Shown in pieces: positions 480 to 15,670 of a DNA stretch of 44,394 bases. The notes beneath the pieces were generated by a model, which was given only the letters and a program-made list of their open reading frames with translations, had not been told where the DNA came from and ran no database searches. Positions within the stretch are counted from its first letter, which is position 1, and every line of letters begins with the position of its first letter. Made by a program: the position numbers and the translations under genes. Location: positions 1 through 44,394 of the IMG/VR virus record IMGVR_UViG_3300031753_000012. One strand, given 5' to 3'. The stretch is from a virus.

Positions 480-707
480 ATGAATCGCGCCAAGAAAATC
501 AACACCTCAGAGTCGCTGGAGATACTCAAGGACATTGACTCGATAGAGTGGCCGGAGCATGTCACGAGCGCCGATGGTATCTTTCTAGAAGACATGTTCC
601 ACAAAGCAAATAACCGAGATGATGGATTCTTCTTAGTGACAGATCGCCAGTTACTCCGATTGCGCGAAGTAAGAGACCGGTTGAAGAGAAGCGGATTGTT
701 GATGTGA
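480..707 (+). CDS. Hypothetical protein, first gene of early operon
   Basis: A 75-residue charged, soluble protein that I do not recognise. It opens the plus-strand operon and its stop overlaps the GTG of the helicase gene by four bases. No Shine-Dalgarno sequence lies in front of ATG 480. If the putative promoter at 438-465 is right, the mRNA leader would be only a few bases, so initiation may be nearly leaderless. Confidence 0.6.
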   Translation: MNRAKKINTSESLEILKDIDSIEWPEHVTSADGIFLEDMFHKANNRDDGFFLVTDRQLLRLREVRDRLKRSGLLM

Positions 708-2074: not shown

Positions 2075-2289
2075 GGATTGAATCTCGTTCTTTTCTCGTC
2101 AACCATGAAACAGGCGAGCGCAGACACATGCTCTGCCTGATAGCTGAGAATGAAACGGAGAGTTTACAGATTGACAACTGTTTTGGAAATCACGTGAAGG
2201 GAGACGGACTTATCTCTTCAGTTAAAGGAGAAGTAAGACTCTCCGACGGATGCGCAGAACACTACTTACTCCTAGAGAAAGGGAAATGA
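2071..2289 (+). CDS. Hypothetical protein
   Basis: A 72-residue protein of unknown function. The GTG start overlaps the helicase stop by four bases. The stop at 2287-2289 overlaps the next ATG. Its place in the coupled operon supports it as a real gene; no motif is seen. Confidence 0.6.
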   Translation: MRIESRSFLVNHETGERRHMLCLIAENETESLQIDNCFGNHVKGDGLISSVKGEVRLSDGCAEHYLLLEKGK

Positions 2290-2483
2290 GCGCCCATCCC
2301 TACTTGAAGTTCAAGCTTCCATTTCGAATTTCTGGCCAGTGCAGAGCGGGACGGCATTGCGCCTGTTACTCGATTCACTGCACTTGTTCATGCCGACATA
2401 AGCCTGACCCACGCGCACATGGAGAGCATGGAAAGTTTCTGAAACAATATCGAACGGACACAGAGAGGACTACACAGCAATGA
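2286..2483 (+). CDS. Small Cys-rich protein
   Basis: A 65-residue basic protein starting MSAHPYLKFK. I chose ATG 2286, which overlaps the upstream stop as ATGA, over a longer in-frame start at 2250. It carries several Cys and His residues (C-x5-H-x-A-C around residues 16-24, then HCTCSC-R-H near 27-33) that could bind zinc. Function unknown. Confidence 0.6.
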   Translation: MSAHPYLKFKLPFRISGQCRAGRHCACYSIHCTCSCRHKPDPRAHGEHGKFLKQYRTDTERTTQQ

Positions 2484-2842
2484 TGACGATGGCGGAGCGC
2501 ACCAGGCACTTTATCGAGCTGACACAGCGCATGATTGAATTACAACCTAGGCTCTTCACTGAGCTGACACAGAAAATGATTGAGCTGCAGGAGAAGAAGG
2601 GACGCGATTACGGCGAAGAAGATGACGGACTTAAGAATCTGCGCCGCCGCGGGCAGTACGGCGTCGTTGCCCGCATGGGAGATAAGCTCTCACGCCTGGA
2701 GGTGTTAGTGCAGCCAGGACGGCAGGCGGCTGTGTCGGACGAGTCACTCGATGACACATGCATCGACCTTGCGAACTATGCTCTGCTGCTCATCATTCTA
2801 CGACGCTCGGAAATCGCTCAAGCTCAGGAGGTAACGAAGTGA
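2480..2842 (+). CDS. DUF1599 / nucleotide-modification-associated domain protein
   Basis: A 120-residue protein with the DUF1599 pattern. After a helical N-terminus comes 'KGRDYGEEDDGLKNLRR', then 'GVVARMGDKLSRLEVL', then 'DESLDDTCIDLANYALLL'. Proteins with this domain (also called nucleotide modification associated domain 1) are found in phages near genes that alter bases or nucleotide pools; their precise reaction is not established to my knowledge. Here it sits directly before a dUTPase-like gene and near two thymidylate-synthase-fold genes, which fits that context. Confidence 0.72.
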   Translation: MMTMAERTRHFIELTQRMIELQPRLFTELTQKMIELQEKKGRDYGEEDDGLKNLRRRGQYGVVARMGDKLSRLEVLVQPGRQAAVSDESLDDTCIDLANYALLLIILRRSEIAQAQEVTK

Positions 2843-3555
2843 ACGTTGACGACTTCAAGGACATCGAAGTTCCCGAAGGCGACAAGCTAGAGCTGATCTT
2901 CAACCGGCAGCGCGAGCTGATGAATAAATACCACTCAGTCGAGGAAGCGAACGTCGGTCACAAGATTCCCAGTTCCGCTGATGAATATGGTCCACACTGT
3001 GGTCCACTCGATTTGCAAGACAGAGCGAGTCAGCTGCAGCTCAAGTCCTTCGCTTGGCGCATTACAGAGGAAATCACAGAAGCGACTCTCTGCCTCGTCT
3101 CAAATGAAGTAGACAAGACACACTATCAGGAAGAATTGATCGATGCTCTTCACTTCACCGTGGAAATGCTCATCATGTCGGGACTCGACGAGAGAACGCC
3201 TTTTGTAAAAAGATTAACCGATAAGGTAGATAGACTCTACGTACTCTTTTCTCTGATAGGGGAATGGGATTCGGGTGAGCTTGACTTGAACAATGCCGTT
3301 GACCAAATCGAACTGCGTAAACTCGCCTATAACTTTCTAGAAAAGATCGGTGAAGCCTGTAACTATTTGAAGCTCAAACCCTGGAAGACAACGGCGATGC
3401 TAACAGATGTTGCAGCTTACCGAAGTTGCATGAAAGAATCCTTTGTCCAGCTCATCGCTCTACTGAAAGCCTCAAGCTTTGACTCGGATAGCCTTGTGCT
3501 GATGTATCTGCAGAAGCACTCTGTCAATGCTTTTCGGATTCGCAGCCGCTACTGA
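2839..3555 (+). CDS. dUTPase/MazG-like all-alpha NTP pyrophosphatase
   Basis: A 238-residue mostly helical protein. GTG 2839 is chosen because AGGAGG lies just upstream (2826-2831) and the start overlaps the previous stop. An E-E-x-x-E-type metal site is visible in 'WRITEEITEATLC', followed by 'YQEELIDALHFTVEML', the E-x-x-D helix of dimeric dUTPases and MazG-like enzymes. Such enzymes cleave dUTP or other dNTPs to the monophosphate and pyrophosphate, here perhaps feeding dUMP to the ThyA-like enzymes downstream. The exact substrate cannot be read from sequence. Confidence 0.68.
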   Translation: MNVDDFKDIEVPEGDKLELIFNRQRELMNKYHSVEEANVGHKIPSSADEYGPHCGPLDLQDRASQLQLKSFAWRITEEITEATLCLVSNEVDKTHYQEELIDALHFTVEMLIMSGLDERTPFVKRLTDKVDRLYVLFSLIGEWDSGELDLNNAVDQIELRKLAYNFLEKIGEACNYLKLKPWKTTAMLTDVAAYRSCMKESFVQLIALLKASSFDSDSLVLMYLQKHSVNAFRIRSRY

Positions 3556-3566
3556 GGAATCTAGAC

Positions 3567-3680
3567 ATGAAGGTTTGTTACATCTGCCGAGAGCCGCTCA
3601 AGAAAGGTCAAACGGTTGCTACTACAAAGCGTGGCAAGTGTCATCTGGAGTGCCTCAACAAGCGTTGGTGTATAAAATGA
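3567..3680 (+). CDS. Tiny zinc-ribbon-like protein (37 aa)
   Basis: An ORF of 37 codons with C-x2-C near the start (CYIC, residues 4-7) and a C-H-x3-C pair near residues 25-29, a compact treble-clef or zinc-ribbon-like layout. GAGG lies upstream at 3554-3557, and the TGA stop overlaps the ATG of the next gene as ATGA (3677-3680). Spacing, RBS and overlap support it despite its size. Function unknown. Confidence 0.62.
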   Translation: MKVCYICREPLKKGQTVATTKRGKCHLECLNKRWCIK

Positions 3681-4111
3681 ACCAACCCAGCTTGAAAGAG
3701 AGCATCGGCTTTACTGGCACACGTTACGGCATGTCGAGCGACCAGAAAGACTCTCTCAGAGAGATGCTGGAGAGACATCGCGTCGGAGGACTCGTCTGGT
3801 TTCATCACGGCGACTGCATCGGCGCAGACACAGAAGCGTCTGAAATCGCCCAGAAACTCGGCTACAAGATTGCCTGCCATCCGCCAGAGGATGACTCGCG
3901 GCGCTCGTTCTCTGTCTGCGACTTCTGTTATCCAGAGAAGCCATACCTCATTCGTAATCACGAGATCGTAAAGTGCTCTGCTGCTCTTATCGCCGCTCCA
4001 CATTACATGAGAGCGCAGCGCAGAAGCGGCACCTGGGCGACTGTACGATTCGCCGAACAGCTTGGAAAACCCCTCTATGTGTTGTCCCGCAGAGTTGGAG
4101 TTACAGCTTGA
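3677..4111 (+). CDS. SLOG-superfamily nucleotide-binding protein
   Basis: A 144-residue Rossmann-like protein. ATG 3677 overlaps the previous stop; the longer in-frame start at 3527 reads through the neighbouring small gene and is not used. N-terminal 'IGFTGTR', then 'FHHGDCIGADTEA' and a later 'LIAAPH' strand match the DprA/LOG-type SLOG fold, which binds nucleotides or derivatives. Phage SLOG proteins are often linked to nucleotide metabolism or defence signalling; which applies here is unknown. Confidence 0.66.
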   Translation: MNQPSLKESIGFTGTRYGMSSDQKDSLREMLERHRVGGLVWFHHGDCIGADTEASEIAQKLGYKIACHPPEDDSRRSFSVCDFCYPEKPYLIRNHEIVKCSAALIAAPHYMRAQRRSGTWATVRFAEQLGKPLYVLSRRVGVTA

Positions 4112-4893
4112 TTCAACGACGCTTTCCTGATATCCTCACCGCTTGGCATTCGTTGATTGACGAACTTGCTTATCACCACGAGAAAGTCAGAGGCGTGGGA
4201 GCTGGCGGGATCACAACTAGTTACCCAGACGGACTCGTCGTAGACATCGACGATGTGTTGCTGGACGAGGGTCTTCATCTCAATATGTCTTCCTATGGGA
4301 AGAACCGTTGGACTCAGTTTCTCAGACGCTACTTCCGTCCTGATTTCTCGCAGTGGGTGAAAAACACTGCGGCCGAACTGGAAGCGCTGAATAAGCATCA
4401 AGTCGCAGGCTACTCAGTGAGCTACAATCCGAAATTCGAGCAGATAGGAAGAAAAGGATACGGCAGCTCTTCTCGTGGACATCGCCATGGCGCTTGCCTT
4501 GCCTCTCTTCAGCTGCAGCACTTCCCTAAGCCCAAAGTGATCCTGATGTCCCGCGCCTCACAGATCGACAAAGCGGGTTTCCTTGATCTTTCGCTGATTC
4601 ATCTTGTGGCGAAGCAGACAGGTTGGGAAAATGTAAGCGGTACATGGATTGTGTCGATGGCATTTATAGCGGCTGTAAGTCAAATCTTCTACGTCCGAAG
4701 ATTCAAGAAACCTCTTAAAGGACACTCGCTCGAAAAGAGCACCCGCAGATTCTGGCATGACGATTACAACGACGCTAAATATGGTCCACAGCGCCGCAGT
4801 ATCAAGAAAGCGCAGCAGTTTAAACAGCTCGGAGAGATACCGCGCAGCTGTCTGGTATCGGAGCTGAGTCTCGACTTCGAAGAGCGTCCTTGA
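4108..4893 (+). CDS. Divergent thymidylate-synthase-fold protein (putative)
   Basis: A 261-residue protein starting at TTG 4108, which overlaps the previous stop and has GGAG at 4097-4100. The middle resembles the ThyA superfamily: 'RGHRHGACLASLQLQHF' with C130 in the position of the nucleophilic cysteine, then 'VILMSRASQIDKAGFLDL' like the R-S-x-D nucleotide-binding segment, then a long helix. It looks like a distant relative of the protein at 5808-6482. It could be a base-modifying hydroxymethylase-like enzyme or an inactive paralogue. The assignment rests on pattern similarity only. Confidence 0.45.
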   Translation: MIQRRFPDILTAWHSLIDELAYHHEKVRGVGAGGITTSYPDGLVVDIDDVLLDEGLHLNMSSYGKNRWTQFLRRYFRPDFSQWVKNTAAELEALNKHQVAGYSVSYNPKFEQIGRKGYGSSSRGHRHGACLASLQLQHFPKPKVILMSRASQIDKAGFLDLSLIHLVAKQTGWENVSGTWIVSMAFIAAVSQIFYVRRFKKPLKGHSLEKSTRRFWHDDYNDAKYGPQRRSIKKAQQFKQLGEIPRSCLVSELSLDFEERP

Positions 4894-4984
4894 CAAGAGA
4901 CCTTGACAGCGAGTAAGTTTTAAAACGCGGTACTCACTTGTAGTGAGGTTCCCGTTCCGATATGTCGGAGCTTGATTGGCCTCT

Positions 4985-5015
4985 AGCATGTTAAGCAGCA
5001 ATGCTTACATGTGCT
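4985..5015 (+). promoter_or_regulatory. Hairpin with GCAA tetraloop upstream of small membrane gene
   Basis: AGCATG-t-TAAGCA pairs with TGCTTA-CATG-t-GCT around a GCAA loop (4998-5001), a GNRA-type tetraloop. It lies in the 167-base spacer 4894-5060, the largest gap in the early operon. That spacer also holds a six-base hairpin (CTCACT/AGTGAG, 4933-4947) and two TTGACA boxes (4890-4895, 4903-4908). There is no T-run after the stem, so this is not a standard terminator. An internal promoter or processing site is possible. Confidence 0.45.
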
Positions 5016-5060
5016 CCTTGTGAGTGCCGTATTTCAAGAGTAGGAATGAGAGGTATTGAA

Positions 5061-5255
5061 ATGAAAGCATTAAAAGCAATACCCATGATTGTTGCCTTTT
5101 TCATCAATATCCCAATTTGGATGTATCTGCTCTATAGCATTCTCAAGGCGATTAACCCAGATAGGCTAGTCTGGTTCTTATTCTGGATCTATCTGCCGAC
5201 TACATTTCTAACGTCCGTGCTTGTAAAGATCATAGATTTGAACGATAAGAAGTGA
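5061..5255 (+). CDS. Small two-pass membrane protein
   Basis: A 64-residue protein starting MKALKAIPMI. ATG 5061 is preferred over 5001 because AGAGG lies at 5049-5053. Two hydrophobic segments (about residues 6-28 and 36-56) predict two membrane passes with a short polar loop. It is unusual among cytoplasmic replication genes. Function unknown. Confidence 0.6.
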   Translation: MKALKAIPMIVAFFINIPIWMYLLYSILKAINPDRLVWFLFWIYLPTTFLTSVLVKIIDLNDKK

Positions 5256-5296
5256 CGGTATCATGAAGCTGTTCCTCCCCCAGAAACGAGTGGTAT

Positions 5297-5557
5297 ATGC
5301 AACAGCCGAATGGAGTCTCGGCATCGCAGGAGCAGGTTGACAAACACAAAGAGCACTTAGAGTCGTGGTTGCAAGCATGGGCGAACTTGGAATGGGAAAC
5401 GCCGCCCAAACACATAAACCAGAATCACTATCCCGTCTGCATACACTGCCGCGTTTCAGTAGCATGTCAGTGTACGGACGGGCATGAGCTATGGACAGAA
5501 TGCCTCGACTGTATGCGGTTGAATCGATTACTGGCCAAGCGAAGAGAGGCAGCATGA
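5297..5557 (+). CDS. Small Cys-rich protein, zinc-binding-like
   Basis: An 86-residue protein with a helical N-terminal half and a C-terminal 'CIHC...CQC...CLDC' set (C-x2-C-x5-C-x-C-x11-C-x2-C), a likely metal-binding knuckle. Its stop overlaps the next start as ATGA. The ribosome site is weak. Function unknown. Confidence 0.58.
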   Translation: MQQPNGVSASQEQVDKHKEHLESWLQAWANLEWETPPKHINQNHYPVCIHCRVSVACQCTDGHELWTECLDCMRLNRLLAKRREAA

Positions 5558-5811
5558 CACTGCCAGCACTGGTAAATCCTGTGAAGATCGAGACTGAACA
5601 CATCGAGCAGTTGAAACGGCGCAACGTTCAACTATCAATCATTGCCGCAGCTAAATCTCAAGAAGCTACCAAAGCCCAACAAGAATCAACTGAAGCACGC
5701 CGCACACAAGTCGATGCTGAAACTGCCTTGGACCGGGCATTCGGTATGTGGAAACGTGGAGATGAAATCTCCCAAGAAGAGTTCAATAGACTGATGAAGG
5801 GAGTACTGTGA
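5554..5811 (+). CDS. Hypothetical coiled-coil protein
   Basis: An 85-residue protein; ATG 5554 overlaps the upstream stop and has GAGAGG just before it. Residues 15-65 are rich in Ala, Gln, Glu and Lys in a heptad-like pattern, suggesting a coiled coil. The C-terminus (WKRGDEISQEEFNRLMKG) resembles a short helix-loop-helix. Function unknown. Confidence 0.58.
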   Translation: MTLPALVNPVKIETEHIEQLKRRNVQLSIIAAAKSQEATKAQQESTEARRTQVDAETALDRAFGMWKRGDEISQEEFNRLMKGVL

Positions 5812-6482
5812 GATTCTTTCAAACGTTCGGCGAAGCTCTCAACGAGATCAAGCGGGAGCTGAAAGAGTTCGGCATTCTCGTCCACACTAAGAGTGTGCAG
5901 AACAAAGACATCTCACAAGATGAAAGCTTCACCTGCTACGAGCTGCAGGATTATATCTATCGCGTCACGTCGCCGGACTATACACAGATACCACTGCGCT
6001 GTCCGGAGTGGGCAGAACGCGAATTCATCGAACGTATCAGCGGATTCGCTCTCAATCCAGGCGAAGCTTGGAAGTATCGCCGAGAGTACTGGGAGCAGTT
6101 TCTTAACGATCAGGGAAAGTTCGATTACGCCTATCCCGAACGAATGACAAAGAACTTGGAGAACGTCATTGACGCATTACGTAAGGATCCGAGCACGCGA
6201 CGAGCCTATCTATCGATTTTGGGCAACGATGATCCCCCGAACGAATTTGGCGTCCGTTACCCTTGCTCCATTGGTTATCATTTTCTATACCGACAAGGAC
6301 AGCTTAACATTAAGTACCATCTGCGTTCCAGCGACTTCTTTGAGCACTTCAATTACGACATCTTTTTAGCTGAACGTTTGAAGCATTATGTCGCCGAGAA
6401 AGTCGGAATGAAGCCTGGATTCTTTACGCACGAGATCGGCAGCCTTCACTGCTTCACTAAGGACGTGGCTTTAGTCTTCTAG
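5808..6482 (+). CDS. Thymidylate synthase / dUMP hydroxymethylase-family protein
   Basis: A 224-residue ThyA-superfamily protein, GTG start at 5808 with GGGAG upstream. 'VRYPCSIGYHF' carries the nucleophile C153. 'IKYHLRSSDFFEHFNYDIF' matches the R-S-x-D and F-N segments that hold the nucleotide, and 'HEIGSLHCF' matches the C-terminal G-D-x-H-x-Y strand. The Asn in FN is the residue that in ThyA prefers uracil over cytosine, so dUMP is the likelier substrate. It is shorter than bacterial ThyA (about 264). It could make dTMP or 5-hydroxymethyl-dUMP; with the neighbouring dCMP deaminase and dUTPase-like genes the latter is worth testing. Confidence 0.78.
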   Translation: MRFFQTFGEALNEIKRELKEFGILVHTKSVQNKDISQDESFTCYELQDYIYRVTSPDYTQIPLRCPEWAEREFIERISGFALNPGEAWKYRREYWEQFLNDQGKFDYAYPERMTKNLENVIDALRKDPSTRRAYLSILGNDDPPNEFGVRYPCSIGYHFLYRQGQLNIKYHLRSSDFFEHFNYDIFLAERLKHYVAEKVGMKPGFFTHEIGSLHCFTKDVALVF

Positions 6483-6483
6483 C

Positions 6484-6678
6484 ATGTCGTACATAAAAGT
6501 AAGTGACCCCTACGAAGTCGATGGTAAGTGGTACTGGGGTCAGTCTCTGGAGTCTGAAACCGGCATGAAGATATGGGGTCCTGTATTCTACGGACCATAC
6601 GACACAGAGGAAGAAGCTCAGAGACATGCTAAGTTACGCATCAATCAGCTAAGCGAATTTTGGGAACATCAACGATGA
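6484..6678 (+). CDS. Hypothetical protein
   Basis: A 64-residue protein rich in Trp and Tyr, 'WYWGQS...KIWGPVFYGPYDTEEEAQRHA', with the look of a small beta sheet ending in a helix. Its stop overlaps the ATG of the deaminase. Function unknown. Confidence 0.6.
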   Translation: MSYIKVSDPYEVDGKWYWGQSLESETGMKIWGPVFYGPYDTEEEAQRHAKLRINQLSEFWEHQR

Positions 6679-7073
6679 CTCGCATCACACGAGACGAGAA
6701 GCTCATTGAGTATACCAAGCTTGTGGCGAAGCGGGGAACGTGTCTGCGCGCCAAAGTTGGCTGTGTGATCGCCCGAGACGGGCGCGTGCTCTCCGAAGGC
6801 TATAACGGCAGCGCTCCGGGAGAACCACATTGCCTCGATGTCGGCTGTCTCATGGAAGATGGTCACTGTATAAGGACCCTACACGCCGAAGCTAATTCTG
6901 TGGCCTGGGCAGCCCGTCGCGGAATCGCTATCGAGGGAGCAACTCTTTTCACCTATGGATGGCGAGACGGCATCTGTCATCGCTGCCACAAGCTAGCTCT
7001 TTCGGCCGGAATTGCGAAGATCGTAGAAATTCCGCTTGAAGATGGAATAGCTGCAGTGGAGAAGCTCATTTGA
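6675..7073 (+). CDS. dCMP deaminase (ComEB-like)
   Basis: A 132-residue zinc deaminase that converts dCMP to dUMP. ATG 6675 is chosen for its ATGA overlap. The zinc site is H70-A-E72 ('TLHAEANS') with C101-x2-C104; the usual P before the first Cys is replaced by I. Additional C53, C58, H64 and C65 match the second structural zinc of phage dCMP deaminases. Its product would feed the ThyA-family enzyme encoded just upstream. Confidence 0.9.
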   Translation: MTRITRDEKLIEYTKLVAKRGTCLRAKVGCVIARDGRVLSEGYNGSAPGEPHCLDVGCLMEDGHCIRTLHAEANSVAWAARRGIAIEGATLFTYGWRDGICHRCHKLALSAGIAKIVEIPLEDGIAAVEKLI

Positions 7074-7282
7074 GGTGTCAAGCTTTCACTCGCTATATCT
7101 TCTTTACAGAAGGGAAATACAGTCAGCATCGCTGTCCATTCGAAGGTCATCACAGGATTGACGGCAAGACTTACTGTATGCGACACGCCGACAAGGTTAG
7201 GCTAGGAATCAGTTTCAGACACGGAACACAGAAAGAACTGGCGGAAGCATACAAGACACATCCGCACATGTTTAAGCCATGA
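7070..7282 (+). CDS. Small Cys/His protein
   Basis: A 70-residue protein with TTG start at 7070 overlapping the deaminase stop, GGAG at 7058-7061. C3, C22, C36 and nearby His residues (CPFEGHH, YCMRH) suggest a small zinc-binding fold. Its stop overlaps the polymerase ATG. Function unknown. Confidence 0.6.
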   Translation: MRCQAFTRYIFFTEGKYSQHRCPFEGHHRIDGKTYCMRHADKVRLGISFRHGTQKELAEAYKTHPHMFKP

Positions 7283-9759
7283 ACCGCCATCCTAAATCGA
7301 ATCTCATCTGGGACACTTTGCGCAATCCCAAATGTGAAGCCTGCGACCTTCATAAAGAGGCGAAGACGATTTGCTTGTTAGGGGACGGGCCTGTTCCTGC
7401 AAAAGGACTAGTCTTAGGTGAAGCTCCCGGTTACAGAGAAGACTCTGTGGAAATTCCCTTCAGCGGTAAGTCTGGACTCTTTCTGCGTAAGATGCTCAAA
7501 GAAATTGGACTTGACCCGAGAGAGTTATATATCACGAATGTAGCAGCGTGCAGACCCCCTGGGAATCGCCCTCCGACTCGCAAAGAAGCGAAGACATGCT
7601 CCGAGCTGTATCTGGTGCCGCAGATCGAACGTGTAGCGCCGAGAGCTGCTCTGCTGCTTGGTAACACTGCCGTAAGCTTCGCTCTCGGAAAGAAAGCTTC
7701 CGTCACAAAGATGGAGGGAACGACTTTCAACTATGAAGGCATCATCTGTGTTCCCAGCCGCCATCCATCGAGCGTCATTCGAGCCGAAGGAGAAGAAGGC
7801 TACGCCTTTGTGCTGCAGCAGTTCCGCGAGAATCTTCTGCTCTTCAAGCGAGTACTTAATCCGCAGAAGGAAGATGAGTTTAAATTCTCTTCCGAGTTGC
7901 CCGATAAGCTAGAAGAAGGAAAAGCCGTTTACACAGATATCGAGACGACTGGACTATCTCCTTTCGTCGAAGACGCGAAGATTCACAGCGCAGGATTCGC
8001 GCAGTATCCAGCGTCGATTTCATGCTTTGCGCTCAACGGAAAGCGTCATGTCAATGTGAATTACGTTCTGAAGAATTTTCCGATCATCGCACATCGCACG
8101 ACGTTTGAGGGAACATGGTACCGCCAGCATTTTGGAATCACTCCGCGCATTTATCACGACACCAAGCTGATGGCGTATCTCATCGACGAGAATGAGCCGT
8201 CGGGCTTGAAGTATCAGGCGATACGCTACCTCGGAGTCGAGCCTTGGGCGGAAGAGATGGACTTCAAGGATCCAGACTTGAAGAAGCTTCTTCCCTACAA
8301 TGCCCGCGACGTGCAATATGGATTGAGGCTCTATCGGGAACGCGATCTGCCCTTCCTGAAGAAGAATCCGAAGATCGCCCGCTTGATGCGTTATATTCTG
8401 CTTCCCGCCATTGAAGTCTTTATCGAGATCATCTGCAACGGCTTTCACATCGACGAGAAAGCAGCAACGAAGAAGCTCAAGCACTGCCAGGATGAGAAGA
8501 AGAAGCTCAATGACAAGCTGAATGAAATCGCAGGCAAAGAAGTTAATCCCGGCTCGCCGAAGCAGATGAGCCATCTTTTCTACAAGCAGCTGGCGCTCAC
8601 ATGTCCGGTGAAGACGAAGAAAGGCGCTGACTCTACGTCCGAGGCGTCTCTGGTGAGGCTCAAAGGTCAGCACGAAGCTGTGGACGTGCTGTGGGCGTGG
8701 AGAGGCTGGGAGAAATACGACTCTACGTACTTGACGCCATGGCTGGAGAAAGGGCCGATACTTCACGCTAACTACGATTTCACTGGAACAGACACCGGTC
8801 GCCTCAGCTCTTCCATGGTCAAGAATTCACGCAACGAGAAAGGGACTGGAGCTGTCATTCATCAGTGTCCGAGAGATGCTTTCATCCGCAATCTTATCGT
8901 CGCTAGAAACAAGGGTTGGTATATTCTCGCTGCCGATCTGTCACAGATTGAGTTGCGCTGGGTCGCTCATCACGCCAACGAAGAAACTATGATCCAGATT
9001 TTTAGGCGCGGTGAGGACATTCATCTCGCTACGGCGCAGACTCTTCGTAAAGGAGAGATCGACAAAGAGACGAGAAAGCGGGCCAAGGCCGTGAATTTCG
9101 GCTTTGTCTATGGGATGTATGCTCCGAAGTTTCAAGCTTACGCGAAAGAGAAGTTTGAAATCGATCTCACGTTGAAAGAAGCTAAGGACTATCGCAGGAA
9201 ATTCTTCGAGAAGTATAACGGATTATTGTCTTGGCATCGTCGAGTGGAAGCGTTCGTCAGGCAGAATGGTTATATCGATTCTGTCTTCGGTCGTCGTAGA
9301 CATCTTCCCGAAGCGAGAGACGCAAGCGAAGAAGACTGTCCAGATTGCTTGAAGGATATCAAGTCGGATTGCTTTCTATGTGGAGGTACCGGCATCGTCT
9401 CAGGCAGCGGCTCAGCCGATGAATGGATACGGAGAGAGAACGTGAGACAGGCTATAAACTCTCCGATCCAGAGCGCAGCAAATGAGCTGGACTTGCTCAT
9501 CGCCGCATTAATCGCAAGTTACTCTCTGCCCTGGGATTTCAAGATCGACCGCAAGCGGACTCTGCCTATCGGGGCTGCTCACGACTCGCTGCTCTTTGAA
9601 GTCGAACCGAGCTACGCGAAGACGCTCAAAGAGGGAATCTTGTGGACGGTGAAGAATCTGCCTCTCAAAAAATTCTTTGACATCGTGATGCGCGTGCCGA
9701 TTCTCATAGACGTAAACGTCTACTCGGATTGCTGGGAAGGGAAGGTAGTTGAGTTATGA
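7279..9759 (+). CDS. Uracil-DNA glycosylase / family A DNA polymerase fusion
   Basis: An 826-residue replicative polymerase. Residues 15-190 are a family-4-like uracil-DNA glycosylase: C19, C22, C91, C107 (iron-sulfur ligands), GEAPG at 47-51 and H162 in 'SRHPSS'. Then a 3'-5' exonuclease: D220/E222 (DIETTG), E277 where Asp is usual ('HRTTFEGTW'), Y340/D344. The polymerase has motif A with D553 (DLSQIELR), motif B with R599/K603, and motif C H768-D769-S770 (usual HDE). A C-x2-C-x7-C-x2-C knuckle (687-701) is inserted in the fingers. No 5' nuclease. Similar UDG-polymerase fusions are known in other phages. It starts at ATG 7279, overlapping the upstream stop. Confidence 0.93.
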   Translation: MNRHPKSNLIWDTLRNPKCEACDLHKEAKTICLLGDGPVPAKGLVLGEAPGYREDSVEIPFSGKSGLFLRKMLKEIGLDPRELYITNVAACRPPGNRPPTRKEAKTCSELYLVPQIERVAPRAALLLGNTAVSFALGKKASVTKMEGTTFNYEGIICVPSRHPSSVIRAEGEEGYAFVLQQFRENLLLFKRVLNPQKEDEFKFSSELPDKLEEGKAVYTDIETTGLSPFVEDAKIHSAGFAQYPASISCFALNGKRHVNVNYVLKNFPIIAHRTTFEGTWYRQHFGITPRIYHDTKLMAYLIDENEPSGLKYQAIRYLGVEPWAEEMDFKDPDLKKLLPYNARDVQYGLRLYRERDLPFLKKNPKIARLMRYILLPAIEVFIEIICNGFHIDEKAATKKLKHCQDEKKKLNDKLNEIAGKEVNPGSPKQMSHLFYKQLALTCPVKTKKGADSTSEASLVRLKGQHEAVDVLWAWRGWEKYDSTYLTPWLEKGPILHANYDFTGTDTGRLSSSMVKNSRNEKGTGAVIHQCPRDAFIRNLIVARNKGWYILAADLSQIELRWVAHHANEETMIQIFRRGEDIHLATAQTLRKGEIDKETRKRAKAVNFGFVYGMYAPKFQAYAKEKFEIDLTLKEAKDYRRKFFEKYNGLLSWHRRVEAFVRQNGYIDSVFGRRRHLPEARDASEEDCPDCLKDIKSDCFLCGGTGIVSGSGSADEWIRRENVRQAINSPIQSAANELDLLIAALIASYSLPWDFKIDRKRTLPIGAAHDSLLFEVEPSYAKTLKEGILWTVKNLPLKKFFDIVMRVPILIDVNVYSDCWEGKVVEL

Positions 9760-10736
9760 GAGTCACTTCTTGCAGCTTCAGCTCCGATAAGCGGCTTTCC
9801 AGATGCGAACAACAGTATAGCTACCGCGCCGATCAGCGTCTGAAGCCTCGCTTAAAAGGTAAAGGTCTGTATATGGGAGACTGGATACACGAGCTTCTCC
9901 AAGCATATCGCCTGAAGAAAGATTGGAAGAAGAGATTCCAAGAATTTAAGAAGGAGAAGTGGGACAAGCTCTTCGATGAAGAAAAAGAAAAATACGAAGA
10001 GGACGGCTTGACTCCCGAACTTGTCTACGCCCTATTCGAACACTATGTGGACCACTGGAGTGAGCAAGATAAGCACTGCAAAGTCATTCAAGTCGAAAAA
10101 TCCTATGAGCTGATGACGAAATACGGTTTCCCCGTTCGTTGGAAGTCAGACTATATCGTGCAAGATGGAAGAGCCGTTGTACTCTTCGAGAACAAGAACA
10201 AAAAAGAAATTCCCGACTCTAGCGAGCGCATCTTATCGCCACAGGTTCACGCCTATTGCTATCTACTCTCGAAAGTCGGAATCAAGGTTAATAGGATCAC
10301 CTGGGACTACATTAGGACCGAACCAGTACCGTCACCACAAATTCTGAAGAGCGGCGAACTGAGCAAGCGCAAGATCAACACCGACCAGCGTACCTATCTT
10401 AAAGCGCTGAAGGAAGCGAAGATTCATCCGAAAGGCGACGAAGTTATCGGATTGCAGAACTATCTCGAGACGCTGCCGGAGACGCTCTCGCTGGCGCGTG
10501 TGACGAATGCACCGAATCTGAAAGTAGGTGAGCAGTTCGTTAGAGATTGGATCGAACGCCATCGCCGCGCCCAGCTTATTAAGCGTCCTCTGCGCACCTG
10601 GACTCGTTCCTGCTCTTGGGATTGCGACTATTACACCTTGTGCTCAGCGGATATGCTCGGGAATGTGGATCGGAACATGATCATCAAAAAGGATTTCATT
10701 CAAATCACCGGAAGAAATGGCGAGGAGCTGAAATAA
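9756..10736 (+). CDS. PD-(D/E)XK nuclease, RecB/Cas4-like with Fe-S cysteines
   Basis: A 326-residue nuclease of the RecB/Cas4 group. H45 in 'GDWIHELLQ', D132 in 'WKSDYIV', then E145-x-K147 in 'LFENKNKK' and Q163 in 'SPQVHAY' give the catalytic set. C17 near the N-terminus with C286, C290 and C296 near the C-terminus are placed as in Cas4/AddB-type iron-sulfur nucleases. It probably trims DNA ends for recombination together with the ATPase encoded next. ATG overlaps the polymerase stop. Confidence 0.85.
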   Translation: MRVTSCSFSSDKRLSRCEQQYSYRADQRLKPRLKGKGLYMGDWIHELLQAYRLKKDWKKRFQEFKKEKWDKLFDEEKEKYEEDGLTPELVYALFEHYVDHWSEQDKHCKVIQVEKSYELMTKYGFPVRWKSDYIVQDGRAVVLFENKNKKEIPDSSERILSPQVHAYCYLLSKVGIKVNRITWDYIRTEPVPSPQILKSGELSKRKINTDQRTYLKALKEAKIHPKGDEVIGLQNYLETLPETLSLARVTNAPNLKVGEQFVRDWIERHRRAQLIKRPLRTWTRSCSWDCDYYTLCSADMLGNVDRNMIIKKDFIQITGRNGEELK

Positions 10737-11422
10737 TGCCCGATGTCAAGATCAGCGCATTCAGCGAGTACTTCCAAGACTTTCATCCATCAATCCTGAT
10801 CTACGGGTATAACGGAACCGGGAAGACTACGTTTGCCGGAACTACAGGATTGAAGACGCTGCTCCTCGATTGCTCCGACGCCGGAGTAATGACGCTGCGC
10901 AAGGCTAGCAATCTGCGCATCATCCGAGTGCAATCGACTATGCACTACCTCGACGTTATGGACAAAGTCAACTCTCTGGCTGAAAAAGTCGATCTGCTAG
11001 TGGTCGACACGCTTACGGGTTTGCAGTCAATGGCAATCAAGGAGGTGAAAGGGCGGCGAGGAGAAATGAATATGAGAAAGTGGGGCCAGGTTGGTTCCCG
11101 CGTCATCGAATGCATATCCGAGACGCGTATGTTCAAGAAGGATGTAATCTATCTCGCCCAGGAGAGAAGAAAGACGAAGGACGAAGGAGAGAACACCGTA
11201 CAGCTCATCTCTCCAAGCCTGACGCCAGGAGTACGCGAGTTTCTTTCTAGCTGTGTGGATTGGGTAGGAAGAATGTATATCGACGATGAAAAACGGAAGA
11301 TGAGTTTCTTGTTGACTAGCTATGTCGAAGCAAAAGACCGATCTTCTCTTTTCCCGAAGATCATCGCTAATCCGAGCTATGCTCCTATCCGTAAGCGAAT
11401 CATGGAGTCAATTCATGTGTGA
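10736..11422 (+). CDS. Sak4-like RecA-fold ATPase
   Basis: A 228-residue P-loop protein. ATG 10736 overlaps the stop as TAATG and has GAGGAG before it; the longer in-frame start at 10616 is rejected. Walker A is GYNGTGKTT, Walker B is 'DLLVVDTLTG'. This layout matches phage Sak4-type single-strand annealing/recombination ATPases, which act with SSB. The neighbours (Cas4-like nuclease, SSB-like protein) make a recombination module. Confidence 0.82.
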   Translation: MPDVKISAFSEYFQDFHPSILIYGYNGTGKTTFAGTTGLKTLLLDCSDAGVMTLRKASNLRIIRVQSTMHYLDVMDKVNSLAEKVDLLVVDTLTGLQSMAIKEVKGRRGEMNMRKWGQVGSRVIECISETRMFKKDVIYLAQERRKTKDEGENTVQLISPSLTPGVREFLSSCVDWVGRMYIDDEKRKMSFLLTSYVEAKDRSSLFPKIIANPSYAPIRKRIMESIHV

Positions 11423-11920
11423 CATAGAGCACTTCGACTCCATGCGCTCGCTCTTTCTGCAGTATGTACCGGAGTTCAAGTGCCGCAATTACAAGCCGTT
11501 CATTGCTTCATTCAATTGGGATAAATCGGTAGTTCTGCAGATGAACTCTATCAGCTCCCGCCGAGTCGAAAAGAGACTCTCTTCTTATCTGATACCTGGC
11601 GAACTCAGCCGCTCAGAGAGAGAGAGAGTAGGGCCATACGTTTCGGCAATAGAAAAACTGGCTTCGGAATACACGGAGAGCGTGGAGACTTCTGCCTCGT
11701 CGGAGCTGCCTTCGAGAAAGGCAGACTCACGGCATTTTACCGGTCACTTGAACTTATTGGCGGACTGCACTATGACACAGCTATCTTTGAGGTCATTGAG
11801 AAGCAACTGGGAAGAATCAGGCTGATTACGATTATGGCTGCTTCGGCTCATGTGATGGCTCTTAAGGGTAACTCAAATGAGAAGCTTTACGCAAAGCTCA
11901 TGAGGTACTACAACAACTGA
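11415..11920 (+). pseudogene. Early phage protein split by a frameshift at an (AG)7 tract
   Basis: Frame 1 starts at ATG 11415 (GGAG at 11404-11407) as MCDIEHFDSM and looks natural up to 'LIPGELSRSERE'; after that it turns into odd Ser/Arg-rich sequence ending at 11825. The -1 frame, open from 11525 to TGA 11918-11920, reads 'RAIRFGNRKTGFGIHGERGD', 'FCLVGAAFEKGRLTAFYRS' and 'MALKGNSNEKLYAKLMRYYN', which looks like real protein but has no ATG, GTG or TTG start before its last third. Joining the two at the AG tract gives a continuous protein of about 168 residues. Function unknown. It may be a mutation, an assembly error or programmed slippage. Confidence 0.68.
11615..11628 (+). repeat. (AG)7 dinucleotide tract at frameshift point
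   Basis: Seven AG units lie inside the coding region. One extra unit relative to six AG units explains the shift between the two halves of the gene at 11415-11920. Such tracts change length easily by strand slippage. Confidence 0.85.
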
Positions 11921-11945
11921 TTCTCACTTACAAAGGAGACCTTGA

Positions 11946-12452
11946 ATGGCAAGCAACCGAGTTGTGGAAGTAAATTTTGAAGGAGTCGAAGCTGGCGCGA
12001 TGTTCGTCCGCGTCCCCGAAGGAGACTATGGACTGAAGATCACAAAGGCCGACATCAAAAAGGGAAGTGAGTCGGGAAAGAACTACATCAATCTCACTTT
12101 CAAACTCACGAAAGGCGCAAAAGGTGGCGTCGGAAAATCGCTTCCACACAGCTGCTCGCTGCAGAAGCAATCACTGTGGAATCTGCGCAATCTGCTCGAA
12201 GCCTGCGGTAAGGAAGTGCCGTCGAAAGCGGTCAAGATCAATCTCGACAAGATGATTGGTTGGGAGTGCGCTGGTACAGCCGTAGACGACGAATACGAAG
12301 GAAAGAAGAAGTCCGTCATCAGCGCATTCTTTCCTCTGGCTGATCTCGGAAATACTTCGAAGGACGGTGGAGGTCTTGAAGCCAGCGGCGATGAAGAAGC
12401 GGAAGAGACCGAGAAGGAAGAAACTGACGACACGGAAGAGTTGTTCAGTTAA
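11946..12452 (+). CDS. SSB-like / DUF669-type single-strand DNA-binding protein
   Basis: A 168-residue protein with strong AAAGGAG upstream. A beta-rich N-terminal part with 'GDYGLKITKADIKKGSESGK' and 'YINLTFKL' matches the DUF669 group of phage proteins that take the place of SSB. The C-terminus is a long acidic tail ending EELFS, like the tails SSBs use to recruit partners. It follows the Sak4-like ATPase gene and the frameshifted gene, and precedes a nuclease. Confidence 0.72.
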   Translation: MASNRVVEVNFEGVEAGAMFVRVPEGDYGLKITKADIKKGSESGKNYINLTFKLTKGAKGGVGKSLPHSCSLQKQSLWNLRNLLEACGKEVPSKAVKINLDKMIGWECAGTAVDDEYEGKKKSVISAFFPLADLGNTSKDGGGLEASGDEEAEETEKEETDDTEELFS

Positions 12453-12463
12453 GGGGGCAGGAA

Positions 12464-12769
12464 ATCAGAGGACCGGAGACGAGGTTACGAAAGCGGATAG
12501 TAACAGCATTGCAAGAAGCCTTTCCCGGTTCTCTGTTCCTGAAAATTCACGGTGGCGCGTACCAAAATATCGGTATACCCGATCTACTCTGCTGTGTTCA
12601 AGGTAGGTTCATCGGACTGGAGCTAAAAGTAAAAGGAAATAAAGCTACTCCAGCTCAGTTACTCATGATAGAAAGAATCAATACAGCTAGAGGCAAAGCG
12701 TCTGTGGTCTACTCTGTGGAGGAAGCGGTTGAGTTTGTAAGTCAGTCTCTAAAGGAGAAGCGCAGATGA
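12464..12769 (+). CDS. VRR-NUC nuclease, apparent ATC start
   Basis: The core 'FLKIHGGAYQNIGIPDLLCC' and 'FIGLELKVKG' (D and E-x-K) is typical of VRR-NUC PD-(D/E)XK enzymes, probably a structure-specific nuclease. A start at TTG 12509 would remove the first helix. In-frame codons upstream encode 'PETRLRKRIVTALQEAFPG', the usual start of the family, but contain no ATG, GTG or TTG. ATC at 12464, six bases after GGGGG (12453-12457), is the best placed candidate and gives 101 residues. The function is fairly sure; the start is not. Confidence 0.78.
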   Translation: MRGPETRLRKRIVTALQEAFPGSLFLKIHGGAYQNIGIPDLLCCVQGRFIGLELKVKGNKATPAQLLMIERINTARGKASVVYSVEEAVEFVSQSLKEKRR

Positions 12770-12933
12770 CAGTAACTTGGGAATGTATTTGCGGACGTAA
12801 GTTCGAGAGTGGCCACGAGGCTTTTATCCATCGGGACGGAAATGATTCACATCATGTGTCACCTCAGAAGGAGTCAGATGTTCTGAACTTTATTGCTCCA
12901 GATGAGAAGTTAGAAAACGAGGTGATCCAGTGA
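12766..12933 (+). CDS. Small zinc-finger-like protein (55 aa)
   Basis: A 55-codon gene starting MTVTWECICG. C7-x-C9 followed by H17, H22 and H29-H30 could bind a metal. ATG overlaps the stop of the nuclease gene and its TGA (12931-12933) overlaps the GTG of the cytochrome gene, so it is coupled on both sides. Function unknown. Confidence 0.6.
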   Translation: MTVTWECICGRKFESGHEAFIHRDGNDSHHVSPQKESDVLNFIAPDEKLENEVIQ

Positions 12934-14099
12934 TAGCTAAAATCGCTGCTATACCCATTCTGGCCTTCGTCATCACAGCCGCGTTGCTCTTCAGTCATGG
13001 TCATCCAGCTCCGTTACCTGTTCCCGTATCGAATCTTCCAGAAGCTCCAACTGGATTTGATACACTAACGAACGGTTTTACAAGTCAGACGAACATGGAC
13101 GCCGACCGGGATCAGTTCGAAGAAGACGCTACGTTACCTGCGCTCGGACCGTTCTATAACGCTCGCTCTTGTGCTGACTGCCACGACAATCCAGTGTCTG
13201 GCGGCAATAGTCAAGTATCCGAGCATCGCATATCACCTGAAACCGAGAAGATTAGTTTCGAGACATCAGCAACCACGCGCTACGCCGTATTGAAGAGACA
13301 AAACGTTGCCGCAGCTACACTGATCCATGACCGATCTGTTGATCCCGAAGCGCAACAGAAAGCGCCTTATGATATGACGAATGCGTTGCGTATGTCGCTA
13401 TCTCTCATGGGTGATGGCTTCGTGGAGCAGATACCAGACAAAGAGCTGCTCAACTTGGCTCAAAAGAACGGCGGTCAGGCGATACTTGTACCTGTTCTAG
13501 AATCTGATGGGAAGTTCGCTGTCGGGAGATTCGGCTGGAAGTGTCAACATGCAAGTTTACTATCCTTCGCTGCCGATGCTGACTTCAACGAAAAGGGAGT
13601 CGAGAATCGACTAGTGATGGCTACGCCGCCCCAGCCGTCGAACGGCATCGAAGATAACGATAATCCAGCGCCAGGAAAACCTGAAGATATAGATTTCTAC
13701 GCGGAGATGATGCGCTCGCTCAAAGCGCCGTCTCGTGGCCCGATTACGGCTCAAGTAATGAAAGGCGAAGTTATCTTCCTCAAGATCGGATGTGGGAACT
13801 GCCATACGAAGACAATGACGACGCCGACTGTACAGTTCCACCCGTTCGGTGACTTCTTACTGCACGATGTTGGAACGGGCGACGGTATACATCAGGGACT
13901 CGCACCTGCTAACAAAGTGAGAACGCCTCCACTATGGGGACTGCGCACGCGTCCGCGCCTGTTGCATGACGGCTCAGCCATGGACATTCCGGCAGCTATC
14001 GAACGCCACAAAGAAGAGGCGAGAGACGAGGAGAAGCAATTCGATCATCTAAGCAAAGACGATCAGAAACTGATGTTGGTATTTCTGAATTCACTCTAG
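12930..14099 (+). CDS. Di-haem cytochrome c, DUF1111/DHOR (thiol oxidoreductase-like) family
   Basis: A 389-residue protein with an N-terminal signal/anchor (hydrophobic residues 5-22) and two c-type haem motifs, C81-x2-C84-H85 and C288-x2-C291-H292. 'GDGFVEQIPDKEL', 'VGRFGWKCQHASLL', 'TPPLWGLRTRPRLLHDGSA' and the C-terminal 'LMLVFLNSL' match the di-haem oxidoreductase family (DUF1111) over its length. Family members act in the periplasm as electron carriers or putative peroxidases. GTG 12930 overlaps the preceding small gene by four bases, so it belongs to the phage operon. It needs the host's Sec and cytochrome c maturation systems. Its role in infection is unknown. Confidence 0.87.
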   Translation: MIAKIAAIPILAFVITAALLFSHGHPAPLPVPVSNLPEAPTGFDTLTNGFTSQTNMDADRDQFEEDATLPALGPFYNARSCADCHDNPVSGGNSQVSEHRISPETEKISFETSATTRYAVLKRQNVAAATLIHDRSVDPEAQQKAPYDMTNALRMSLSLMGDGFVEQIPDKELLNLAQKNGGQAILVPVLESDGKFAVGRFGWKCQHASLLSFAADADFNEKGVENRLVMATPPQPSNGIEDNDNPAPGKPEDIDFYAEMMRSLKAPSRGPITAQVMKGEVIFLKIGCGNCHTKTMTTPTVQFHPFGDFLLHDVGTGDGIHQGLAPANKVRTPPLWGLRTRPRLLHDGSAMDIPAAIERHKEEARDEEKQFDHLSKDDQKLMLVFLNSL

Positions 14100-14112
14100 A
14101 GAGGAAATAGTC

Positions 14113-14373
14113 GTGAGCGATTTAATGAAATCTGACGTTTTGAAATCCAAAGCTCCGAGAAAACTCACGAAAGCTTTAAATCTACCGAGCGATTCAACTA
14201 GAGGCGATTGCCTTCATGCACTCTCGATGAGGATAGTAAAACGTCTTGAAATCGAAGCATATCTTGAAGATCACCCAGAAGATAAAGCTGAGATGGAGAG
14301 ATTAAATCCTGGAATAGAATTTTGCGGAGTAGACGAAGCAATTAAACGGCTACAAAAAGGTAAGCCCAGATGA
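14113..14373 (+). CDS. Hypothetical protein
   Basis: An 86-residue charged helical protein, GTG start at 14113 preceded by GAGAGG. No recognised domain. It lies 13 bases after the cytochrome gene. Confidence 0.55.
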   Translation: MSDLMKSDVLKSKAPRKLTKALNLPSDSTRGDCLHALSMRIVKRLEIEAYLEDHPEDKAEMERLNPGIEFCGVDEAIKRLQKGKPR

Positions 14374-14397
14374 CCGGAAACTGATGAGAGGACAATC

Positions 14398-14664
14398 ATG
14401 AGTGATCAATGGAATGGGATTAATTTAGGAGATCGGGTCCGTGATCGAATAACTGGATTCACGGGCATCGCTAGTTGTAAAGCGGAGTGGTTGAACAGCT
14501 GCAGACGCATCACAGTTCAGCCCGAGGAGTTGAAAGACGGGAAGCCCATAGACGGCTGCACCTTCGACGTTGAAGATTTGACTCTGGTGTTAGCGGGCGT
14601 CCACTCGAAGAAGCCTATAGAACACGAGACAAATGGCCCGATGCCCGACGTGCCAAGGCGTTGA
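14398..14664 (+). CDS. Conserved small phage protein, SH3/KOW-like
   Basis: An 88-residue protein: 'LGDRVRDRITGFTGIASC', 'CRRITVQPEELKDGKPIDG' and 'TFDVEDLTLV' form a short beta barrel pattern seen in many small phage proteins of unknown function. GAGAGGA lies upstream. Confidence 0.6.
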   Translation: MSDQWNGINLGDRVRDRITGFTGIASCKAEWLNSCRRITVQPEELKDGKPIDGCTFDVEDLTLVLAGVHSKKPIEHETNGPMPDVPRR

Positions 14665-14667
14665 AAT

Positions 14668-14943
14668 ATGAGCTGCGGATGTCCATGTCCAGAGTGTACG
14701 AATCCTAGTTACAGGATTCACTGCATGGGAAAAGCTTGCAACAGGAGAGTACTCAAGATGTCGAATAAACCTGATGACCCTATCGTACTGAGTGGCATTG
14801 ATCGAAAGTGGATCGACGCCTTACGCCCCTGGTGGGGCAGTGGTACAGTGCCGTTCTGGCGATTGCCTGACGGCTCCATTGACGCTAATAAAACCATCGA
14901 ATGGTTGATGGAGCTGCGGCATCAGGAGAAAGCTTTGCCATGA
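14668..14943 (+). CDS. Hypothetical protein with Cys-rich N-terminus
   Basis: A 91-residue protein. Residues 3-24 hold a C-x-C-x-C-x2-C then C...C set, a likely metal knuckle. An alternative ATG at 14758 has AGGAG upstream and would drop this knuckle, so either start is possible. The rest ('WIDALRPWWGSG', 'WRLPDGSI') is not recognised. The stop overlaps the next ATG. Confidence 0.52.
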   Translation: MSCGCPCPECTNPSYRIHCMGKACNRRVLKMSNKPDDPIVLSGIDRKWIDALRPWWGSGTVPFWRLPDGSIDANKTIEWLMELRHQEKALP

Positions 14944-15272
14944 GAGGAAAGATACGAGTACCAGAAACGATTGCATTTGTCATTGCTCTGATCATTGGAC
15001 TTCTAGTGTGGTCACGAGGAGAAGAAAAACCTACTCTCACTACTGAACATCGCCTTCAATTGCTCAACGACTTCAAGTCTGCTGTCATCGCCCAAGACAA
15101 TGCAGTCCGCGCCCAGCAGCGAGCGCAGCAACTAGTGCAGAAGTTCTACCAGACACAGACGGAATTGGCGAAGGCCGACAAGTTCCCGGACGGTACGACC
15201 TTCACAGTTAACGTAGACACAGACGAAATAACTCCAGTCATCCCGGAGCCGAAGAAAGACGCAAAGAAATGA
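14940..15272 (+). CDS. Single-pass membrane protein with coiled coil
   Basis: A 110-residue protein starting at ATG 14940 (ATGA overlap; AGGAG upstream). One membrane segment (residues 10-23) is followed by a helical, Gln/Ala-rich stretch and a Pro/Lys-rich tail. The layout recalls an inner-membrane spanin (Rz-like), but it is in the early operon far from the endolysin, so this is only a possibility. Confidence 0.55.
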   Translation: MRGKIRVPETIAFVIALIIGLLVWSRGEEKPTLTTEHRLQLLNDFKSAVIAQDNAVRAQQRAQQLVQKFYQTQTELAKADKFPDGTTFTVNVDTDEITPVIPEPKKDAKK

Positions 15273-15670
15273 GCCGTTGGTACGCGGAGAGACTTTTGCA
15301 GCTGGCGAATGTCGATGATATCCCGATCTCCGAGAGAGAAGAACAGGTAAAGATACTCATCTGCTTTGGAGAGCGCTACAGCAGTGGTAAAGTTCTCATC
15401 CGAAGACGCGAAGAAGTTCCCGCTTACCAGACTGTTTGTCCCTATCTAGCTATCAACTCGTGCGGCGATGCTCTCTCAATTACTCACATTCCTACTGGCT
15501 ACTCGATGATGCACGGCTTCCGACAGCTCCGTACTGCCGAGCTGTGCGCCGGGGCGCTCAAGAGCATCTTCCCTTGGGGCATCAATGACGACGAGAGAGC
15601 TATCCGCCACCGCATGTCGATACTGCCCGAGAAACTGCAAACTTGGATAAAGAAGTGGTCGTCTCTGTAG
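15269..15670 (+). CDS. Hypothetical protein, last gene of early operon
   Basis: A 133-residue protein with ATGA overlap to the gene before. Contains 'YLAINSCGDALSITHIPTGYSMMHGF', a mixed alpha/beta pattern that I do not recognise. It closes the plus-strand operon. Confidence 0.55.
   Translation: MSRWYAERLLQLANVDDIPISEREEQVKILICFGERYSSGKVLIRRREEVPAYQTVCPYLAINSCGDALSITHIPTGYSMMHGFRQLRTAELCAGALKSIFPWGINDDERAIRHRMSILPEKLQTWIKKWSSL

Follow-up and report, generated by a model that had tools for sequence, protein, structure and literature searches.

Among di-haem c-type proteins, the closest described systems include the bacterial cytochrome c peroxidases (bCCPs), MauG, BthA and MbnH. In bCCP, the C-terminal haem has Met as its sixth ligand, whereas in MauG and BthA this ligand is Tyr; the acid-base residue of BthA is Glu277 (PMC6405878). 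A Tyr-to-His change at the equivalent position of BthA abolished the formation of bis-Fe(IV) and kept the reduction of H2O2, and in MauG and BthA the Y294H/Y463H changes reportedly kept the bis-Fe(IV) species from forming (PMC6405878). Proteins of the DHOR family, also known as DUF1111, have been linked to imelysins and iron uptake (PMC3143127). In the open-access papers searched, no description of a phage-encoded DHOR or DUF1111 protein was found; the protein family is known, and its use by phages appears to be new. Here we describe a DHOR gene carried by a tailed phage.

Genomic context of the DHOR gene

The stretch of DNA analyzed (the window) spans 44,394 bases, makes up a complete IMG/VR virus record and comes from a tailed phage, a virus of bacteria. 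Replication and nucleotide genes fill positions 704 to 15670 on the + strand in one run, and virion genes occupy the - strand from ~15.8 kb to the end of the window. The run is called the early operon here because the replication genes share it; its timing is thus presumed. Between 10500 and 16500, the + strand showed no sigma-70-like promoter, and the count of terminator-like sites in this interval was near the shuffled expectation, so the operon borders are drawn from gene spacing only.

The open reading frame (ORF) of the DHOR gene is intact and is coupled to a small upstream ORF, for which no PHROG match was found (Table 1). An earlier note, made from the DNA sequence, had described a full-length DUF1111/DHOR-type protein with an export signal and two C-x2-C-H motifs, joined by a four-base GTGA overlap to a small gene. 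Each of these features was recovered. The N-terminus is signal-like, with residues ~7 to 22 hydrophobic and helical in the structural model, and a hydrophobic N-terminus is common to all other viral DHORs. No clear signal-peptidase site is visible in it, so the window protein may carry an uncleaved anchor.

Table 1. Coordinates of the DHOR gene, its motifs and other features of the window
Feature	Position	Strand	Basis or remark
Gene run: SNF2 helicase, pyrophosphohydrolase, thymidylate synthase, family A DNA polymerase-uracil-DNA glycosylase fusion, exonuclease, AAA ATPase, SSB-like, VRR-NUC	704..15670	+	
DNA polymerase I with N-terminal UDG domain	7279..9759		Pfam UDG 35-178, exo 205-353, pol 398-814
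SSB-like replication protein, conserved early operon	11946..12452	+	phrog_3724
VRR-NUC type nuclease, last conserved early-operon gene in relatives	12509..12769	+	phrog_93
55-aa Cys/His-rich ORF, translationally coupled to the DHOR gene	12766..12933	+	
Shine-Dalgarno-like GAGGTGA, 4 nt ahead of the GTG start	12919..12925	+	sequence
GTGA start/stop overlap with the 55-aa ORF	12930..12933	+	DHOR start codon 12930-12932
DHOR/DUF1111 di-haem c-type protein, 389 aa, GTG start	12930..14099	+	Pfam; AlphaFold model
N-terminal signal or signal-anchor, residues 1-22	12930..12995	+	sequence; model
First haem-attachment motif CADCH, residues 81-85, N-terminal haem (peroxidatic in bCCP)	13170..13184	+	
W203, aligned to the inter-haem Trp position of bCCP/MauG	13536..13538	+	profile alignment
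E221, aligned to the acid-base Glu position of bCCP/MauG	13590..13592	+	profile alignment
Second haem-attachment motif CGNCH, residues 288-292, C-terminal haem	13791..13805	+	
H312 in the LLHD motif, 71/71 rows	13863..13865	+	family alignment
H360, invariant, predicted sixth ligand of the C-terminal haem	14007..14009	+	sequence alignment
Remaining accessory cassette: 14113-14373, 14398-14664 (phrog_16275), 14668-14943, 14940-15272, 15269-15670	14113..15670	+	
Major-capsid-like protein	40152..42065		phrog_13692

Genes of the phage families phrog_93 (upstream) and phrog_16275 (downstream) flank the DHOR gene on its own strand, and the next ORF begins 13 nt past the DHOR stop codon. Its G+C content is 51.4%, compared with 51.1% (standard deviation, 2.5) for window genes of at least 150 codons; the cellular DHOR relatives sampled, including those from Acidobacteriota, are mostly at 53 to 68%. 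Base composition is continuous over the DHOR region. The codon bias of the gene was the weakest among the early genes tested, as expected of an acquired gene, and gives no sign of strong expression.

A profile scan with the window polymerase identified 80 related viral loci. A VRR-NUC gene was found in 50 of these and an SSB gene in 55; DHOR and homologues of the genes between 12766 and 15670 were found in none. In locus L132, whose polymerase is 57% identical to that of the window, the early operon ends at VRR-NUC and convergent virion genes start immediately. Because the polymerase relatives are without DHOR and the surrounding genes, and the L132 operon stops at VRR-NUC, the DHOR gene is, as judged from gene content, part of a lineage-specific accessory cassette (12766 to 15670) appended where the conserved early operon ends. 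A search of phage genomes for the same gene beside VRR-NUC and SSB-like genes had been proposed with the earlier note; none of the 80 loci has it there, and the other viral DHORs lie in other contexts. The phage context itself is well supported. Same-strand phage flanks, the overlap, phage-like G+C content, the syntenic empty site and 12 parallel contigs (see below) all uphold the earlier proposal that the gene, closely followed by other phage genes, belongs to the phage operon and is not a stray host segment.

Several other features of the genome were observed. The product of 14940-15272, at the cassette end, is a 110-aa protein with an N-terminal membrane anchor followed by a long polar helix-like region; it matched no family and looks like an inner-membrane spanin or similar protein. 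The window polymerase has a UDG domain fused to its exonuclease and polymerase domains, and the polymerases of L133-L139 align to it only from residue ~205-211, so that the UDG part seems to be missing from them. In Arthrobacter phages Sonali and Mufasa8, the genes that the phrog_13692 product matches carry the annotation major capsid protein, and on account of these annotations phrog_13692 is probably a capsid family. A relative of this protein was found in 1 of 396 Acidobacteriota genomes (34%), and Brevundimonas phages also encode it.

Family, motifs and predicted chemistry

Analysis of the 389-aa protein with Pfam gave a match to DHOR (PF06537) of 68.7 bits (cut-off, 22; E = 4.5e-19) over residues 152 to 389, and the N-terminal haem half was recognized via a 71-row family alignment. 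The full-length match is not attributable to chance, and the HMM search proposed with the earlier note thus places the protein inside the DHOR family. Nine other viral copies also scored over the cut-off. The score against PF03150, the bCCP/MauG family, was 18.1 bits and so fell below the threshold of 25.6.

Further inspection of the sequence revealed that the RFGWK, LLHD, RTPPLWGL and HDG motifs of DHOR and His360 are all present. Both CxxCH motifs, H312 and H360 are invariant in the 71-row alignment, and the spacing between H85 and H292 is 207 residues (family range, 175 to 267). All 12 viral rows keep both CxxCH motifs, E221, H312 and H360, and 11 of them keep W203. H360 sits 14 residues past the His of the HDG motif (H346 in the window) in 69 of the 71 rows. 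In the sequence alignment, His stands at position 360 in every row, at a site that is Met in bCCP and Tyr in MauG and BthA. H312, in the LLHD motif, is without a counterpart in the bCCP profile alignment; it is possibly an extra haem ligand or a metal site specific to DHOR.

An AlphaFold model made from 11 sequences had a pLDDT of 40.6, and the confident model, made from 71 family sequences, had a pLDDT of 85.6 and a pTM of 0.84. The best solved matches in Foldseek were bacterial cytochrome c peroxidases and MauG (6qkn, 3o5c and 3svw; probability, 1.00), with TM-scores of only 0.3 to 0.57, which indicates that the domain arrangement differs from that of bCCP/MauG. The modeled protein nevertheless shares their overall fold. 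In BFVD, a viral fold library, no structure matched the model. The structure prediction called for in the earlier note gave a bCCP/MauG-type fold, and the sequence alignments point to His85, His292 and His360 as predicted haem ligands. A profile match to Shewanella bCCP (E = 4e-10) was also obtained, and in this alignment W203 lines up with the inter-haem Trp and E221 with the acid-base Glu of bCCP.

From the presence of His360 at the Met/Tyr ligand position, together with the result of the Tyr-to-His change in BthA, we infer that the C-terminal haem is a His/His (His292/His360) electron-transfer haem and that the enzyme would reduce peroxide rather than modify proteins in the manner of MauG. 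The distal-pocket Gln of bCCP aligns with Phe213 in all viral DHORs, so the peroxidatic pocket differs from that of bCCP, and this counts against a role as a peroxidase. At position 213, 42 of the 59 cellular rows have Gln and the other 17 have Phe, as do all 12 viral rows. The DHORs divide there into two types, and the viral proteins are drawn only from the Phe type.

Viral DHOR genes and their origin

Single-sequence scans of viral contigs found no DHOR, and profile scans were needed. These revealed 12 further IMG/VR phage contigs with an intact DHOR gene and phage-gene neighbors, a count that leaves out L014, L015 and the ambiguous L102. L014 and L015 were rejected as phage DHORs since they look like host DNA on virus records, with a beta-propeller gene and a chemotaxis-type gene beside DHOR. 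The window protein had no match among the 50,697 INPHARED records, and no PHROG family matched it; two other viral DHORs matched INPHARED record MT836197 weakly (22 to 25% identity; an unverified faecal scaffold with no annotation). The earlier statement that phages rarely encode such proteins therefore stands for known phages, whereas among uncultivated phages the gene recurs.

The neighbors of these genes are varied. A terminase gene lies near DHOR in L009, and in L099 and L100 DHOR follows terminase and portal genes, with a head-protease domain downstream. In L010 it comes directly after tail sheath and tape measure genes, with a 4-base overlap, and in L103 it lies within a tail module homologous to that of the window. 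In L013, DHOR has a 4-base overlap with a holin-like gene, which is preceded by head-decoration and tail-fibre genes, and Sak4 lies downstream. Upstream of DHOR are a lipoprotein-like gene in L011 and L012 and a phrog_5902-like gene in L096; L011 also encodes a chitosanase-like (GH75) protein and a primase farther away. A virion protein is encoded downstream in L097. In L098, DHOR stands between primase/helicase and sliding clamp genes and has a 4-base overlap with an RNA ligase gene. In L101 (5494-10146), DHOR and a 152-aa ORF with a signal-like N-terminus lie exactly between the N- and C-terminal parts of one family A DNA polymerase, whose break falls immediately ahead of motif A (PHROG positions 555-988 and 995-1240). 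This split is reminiscent of intein or homing-endonuclease insertion sites; no endonuclease was recognized there.

The occurrence of DHOR in both early and late modules argues against its being part of the virion or serving a single, timing-specific takeover role. No dedicated substrate protein recurred among the neighbors of viral DHOR genes. Carriage by a mobile element was also considered and rejected: the gene after DHOR in L010 has HNH-like motifs, but the flanks of the DHOR genes showed no element in common.

One tree was built from 83 rows, and a careful one from 44 rows. The window DHOR falls within Acidobacteriota (support, 100/100), and it and the L009 protein form two separate lineages inside this phylum. 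Two clades are all viral (L097/L098/L101/L103 and L010-L013/L096), and the L099 lineage adjoins Gemmatimonadota. A single viral clade was rejected (p-AU = 1.9e-61). The bootstraps need 4 to 5 independent changes and the starred branches force at least 3, counts that are provisional because the cellular relatives are those among the matches listed. The window DHOR is up to 49% identical to Acidobacteriota members among the relatives listed, its end branch is ~0.9 to 1.0 changes per site long, and DHOR is multicopy in the five Acidobacteriota genomes checked. The presence of DHOR genes in mostly unrelated viruses and at varied genome places suggests that phages acquired this kind of gene several times and gain something from it.

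Possible roles and comparison with known systems

The reading that we prefer, with even confidence for and against it as a whole, is that a tailed phage took this gene from an Acidobacteriota-like bacterium and keeps it as an auxiliary gene, within an accessory cassette at the 3' end of its early operon, and that the product is a periplasmic di-haem peroxidase of the bCCP/MauG superfamily. The protein would be exported or anchored so as to face the periplasm, and the cytochrome c maturation machinery of the host would equip it with two haems. Peroxide may react at the N-terminal haem (His85) with the aid of Glu221, and the C-terminal haem (His292/His360, predicted to be bis-His) may pass on electrons from periplasmic donors of the host through the Trp203 position. 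In sum, periplasmic peroxide would be removed, and respiratory electrons drained or re-routed, in the infected cell. The effects on respiration, peroxide handling and envelope redox state suggested in the earlier note are putative roles.

Envelope modification or superinfection exclusion is unlikely. Here the enzyme would oxidize a periplasmic or surface protein of the host in the manner of MauG or MbnH, altering receptors or blocking injection by rival phages. It is predicted to face the periplasm, and accessory cassettes such as the one that carries its gene often contain exclusion genes. The superfamily does have protein-modifying members (PMC6405878), but the predicted His360 ligand corresponds to the Y294H/Y463H change that is reported to abolish bis-Fe(IV), the gene shifts between early and late modules, and there is no recurring substrate-protein neighbor.

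A role in iron acquisition is also unlikely. In bacteria, DHOR proteins occur together with imelysin-like iron-binding proteins, and the phage copy would boost periplasmic iron handling during infection. The link of DUF1111 to imelysins and iron uptake (PMC3143127) is accompanied by the presence of imelysin genes next to DHOR on Thermus and Pseudomonas plasmids. However, an imelysin domain was found in none of the 13 viral records tested, many of them fragments, and no imelysin-like partner was seen by eye in the N-termini of the flanking ORFs in five close Acidobacteriota relatives.

That the enzyme is a defense counter-measure, destroying peroxide or other oxidants made by the host or by competitors upon infection, we consider quite unlikely. 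The chemistry would be that of the preferred explanation, and several viral DHORs lie in late modules, which would suit protection of the cell until lysis, but PADLOC found no defense-related neighbor.

There is little to commend the notion that the gene was captured recently from a host and is a neutral passenger that does nothing for the phage. The weak fit to phage codon bias and the lack of DHOR in the 80 loci with a similar polymerase are as such a capture would predict, yet the ORF and motifs are intact after long divergence, the gene is translationally coupled and phage-like in G+C content, and the all-viral clades keep intact motifs. An assembly chimera or host contamination at 12900-14120 is scarcely credible: IMG/VR contigs can carry host DNA, as L014 and L015 seem to, but both flanks are same-strand phage genes with overlapping or nearly contiguous ORFs, composition is continuous, and independent contigs are arranged alike, including the one with DHOR between two polymerase halves.

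Returning to the preferred reading of a phage-borne peroxidase, a wider and more tentative proposal, which we hold to be possible but short of probable, is that exported di-haem peroxidases are recurrent, convergently acquired envelope-redox effectors of phages. Unrelated tailed phages would have captured them on at least 3 to 5 occasions and put their genes freely into early or late modules, even between the two parts of a split DNA polymerase gene, and the enzymes would control periplasmic peroxide or respiratory electron flow during infection. Independent, repeated capture by different phages points to a need of infection at the envelope, apparently an undescribed one. The gene is small and its chemistry easy to test; the prediction is a bis-His electron-transfer haem and peroxidase activity without bis-Fe(IV). 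The phage copies also offer a route to the role of DHOR proteins.

The DHORs of Acidobacteriota resemble the window copy in the two CxxCH motifs, RFGWK, LLHD, HDG and the invariant His360; they differ from it in that the window copy lies in a phage early operon. No recognized partner gene stood beside the cellular DHOR in the five relatives with surroundings listed. Phage ctfzr933 (MW202455) and the IMG/VR loci L131-L142 have the same polymerase-exonuclease-AAA-SSB-VRR-NUC early operon but are without the DHOR cassette. With bCCP, MauG, BthA and MbnH (PF03150), the window protein shares the fold, the two c-type haems and the positions of the inter-haem Trp and acid-base carboxylate. Unlike them, it scores below the PF03150 threshold, has His in place of Met or Tyr as the predicted sixth ligand, and has Phe in place of the bCCP pocket Gln. 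Like known phage auxiliary metabolic genes, e.g., those for tetrapyrrole biosynthesis (PMC11480375), it is a bacterial-type redox or cofactor gene in a phage, and it has phage genes on both sides, away from any host-phage border, and is nested among cellular homologues, as befits an auxiliary gene. Phages are known to have genes for cytoplasmic metabolism and photosynthesis, whereas the window gene would encode an exported c-type di-haem enzyme that needs the periplasmic haem-loading machinery of its host.
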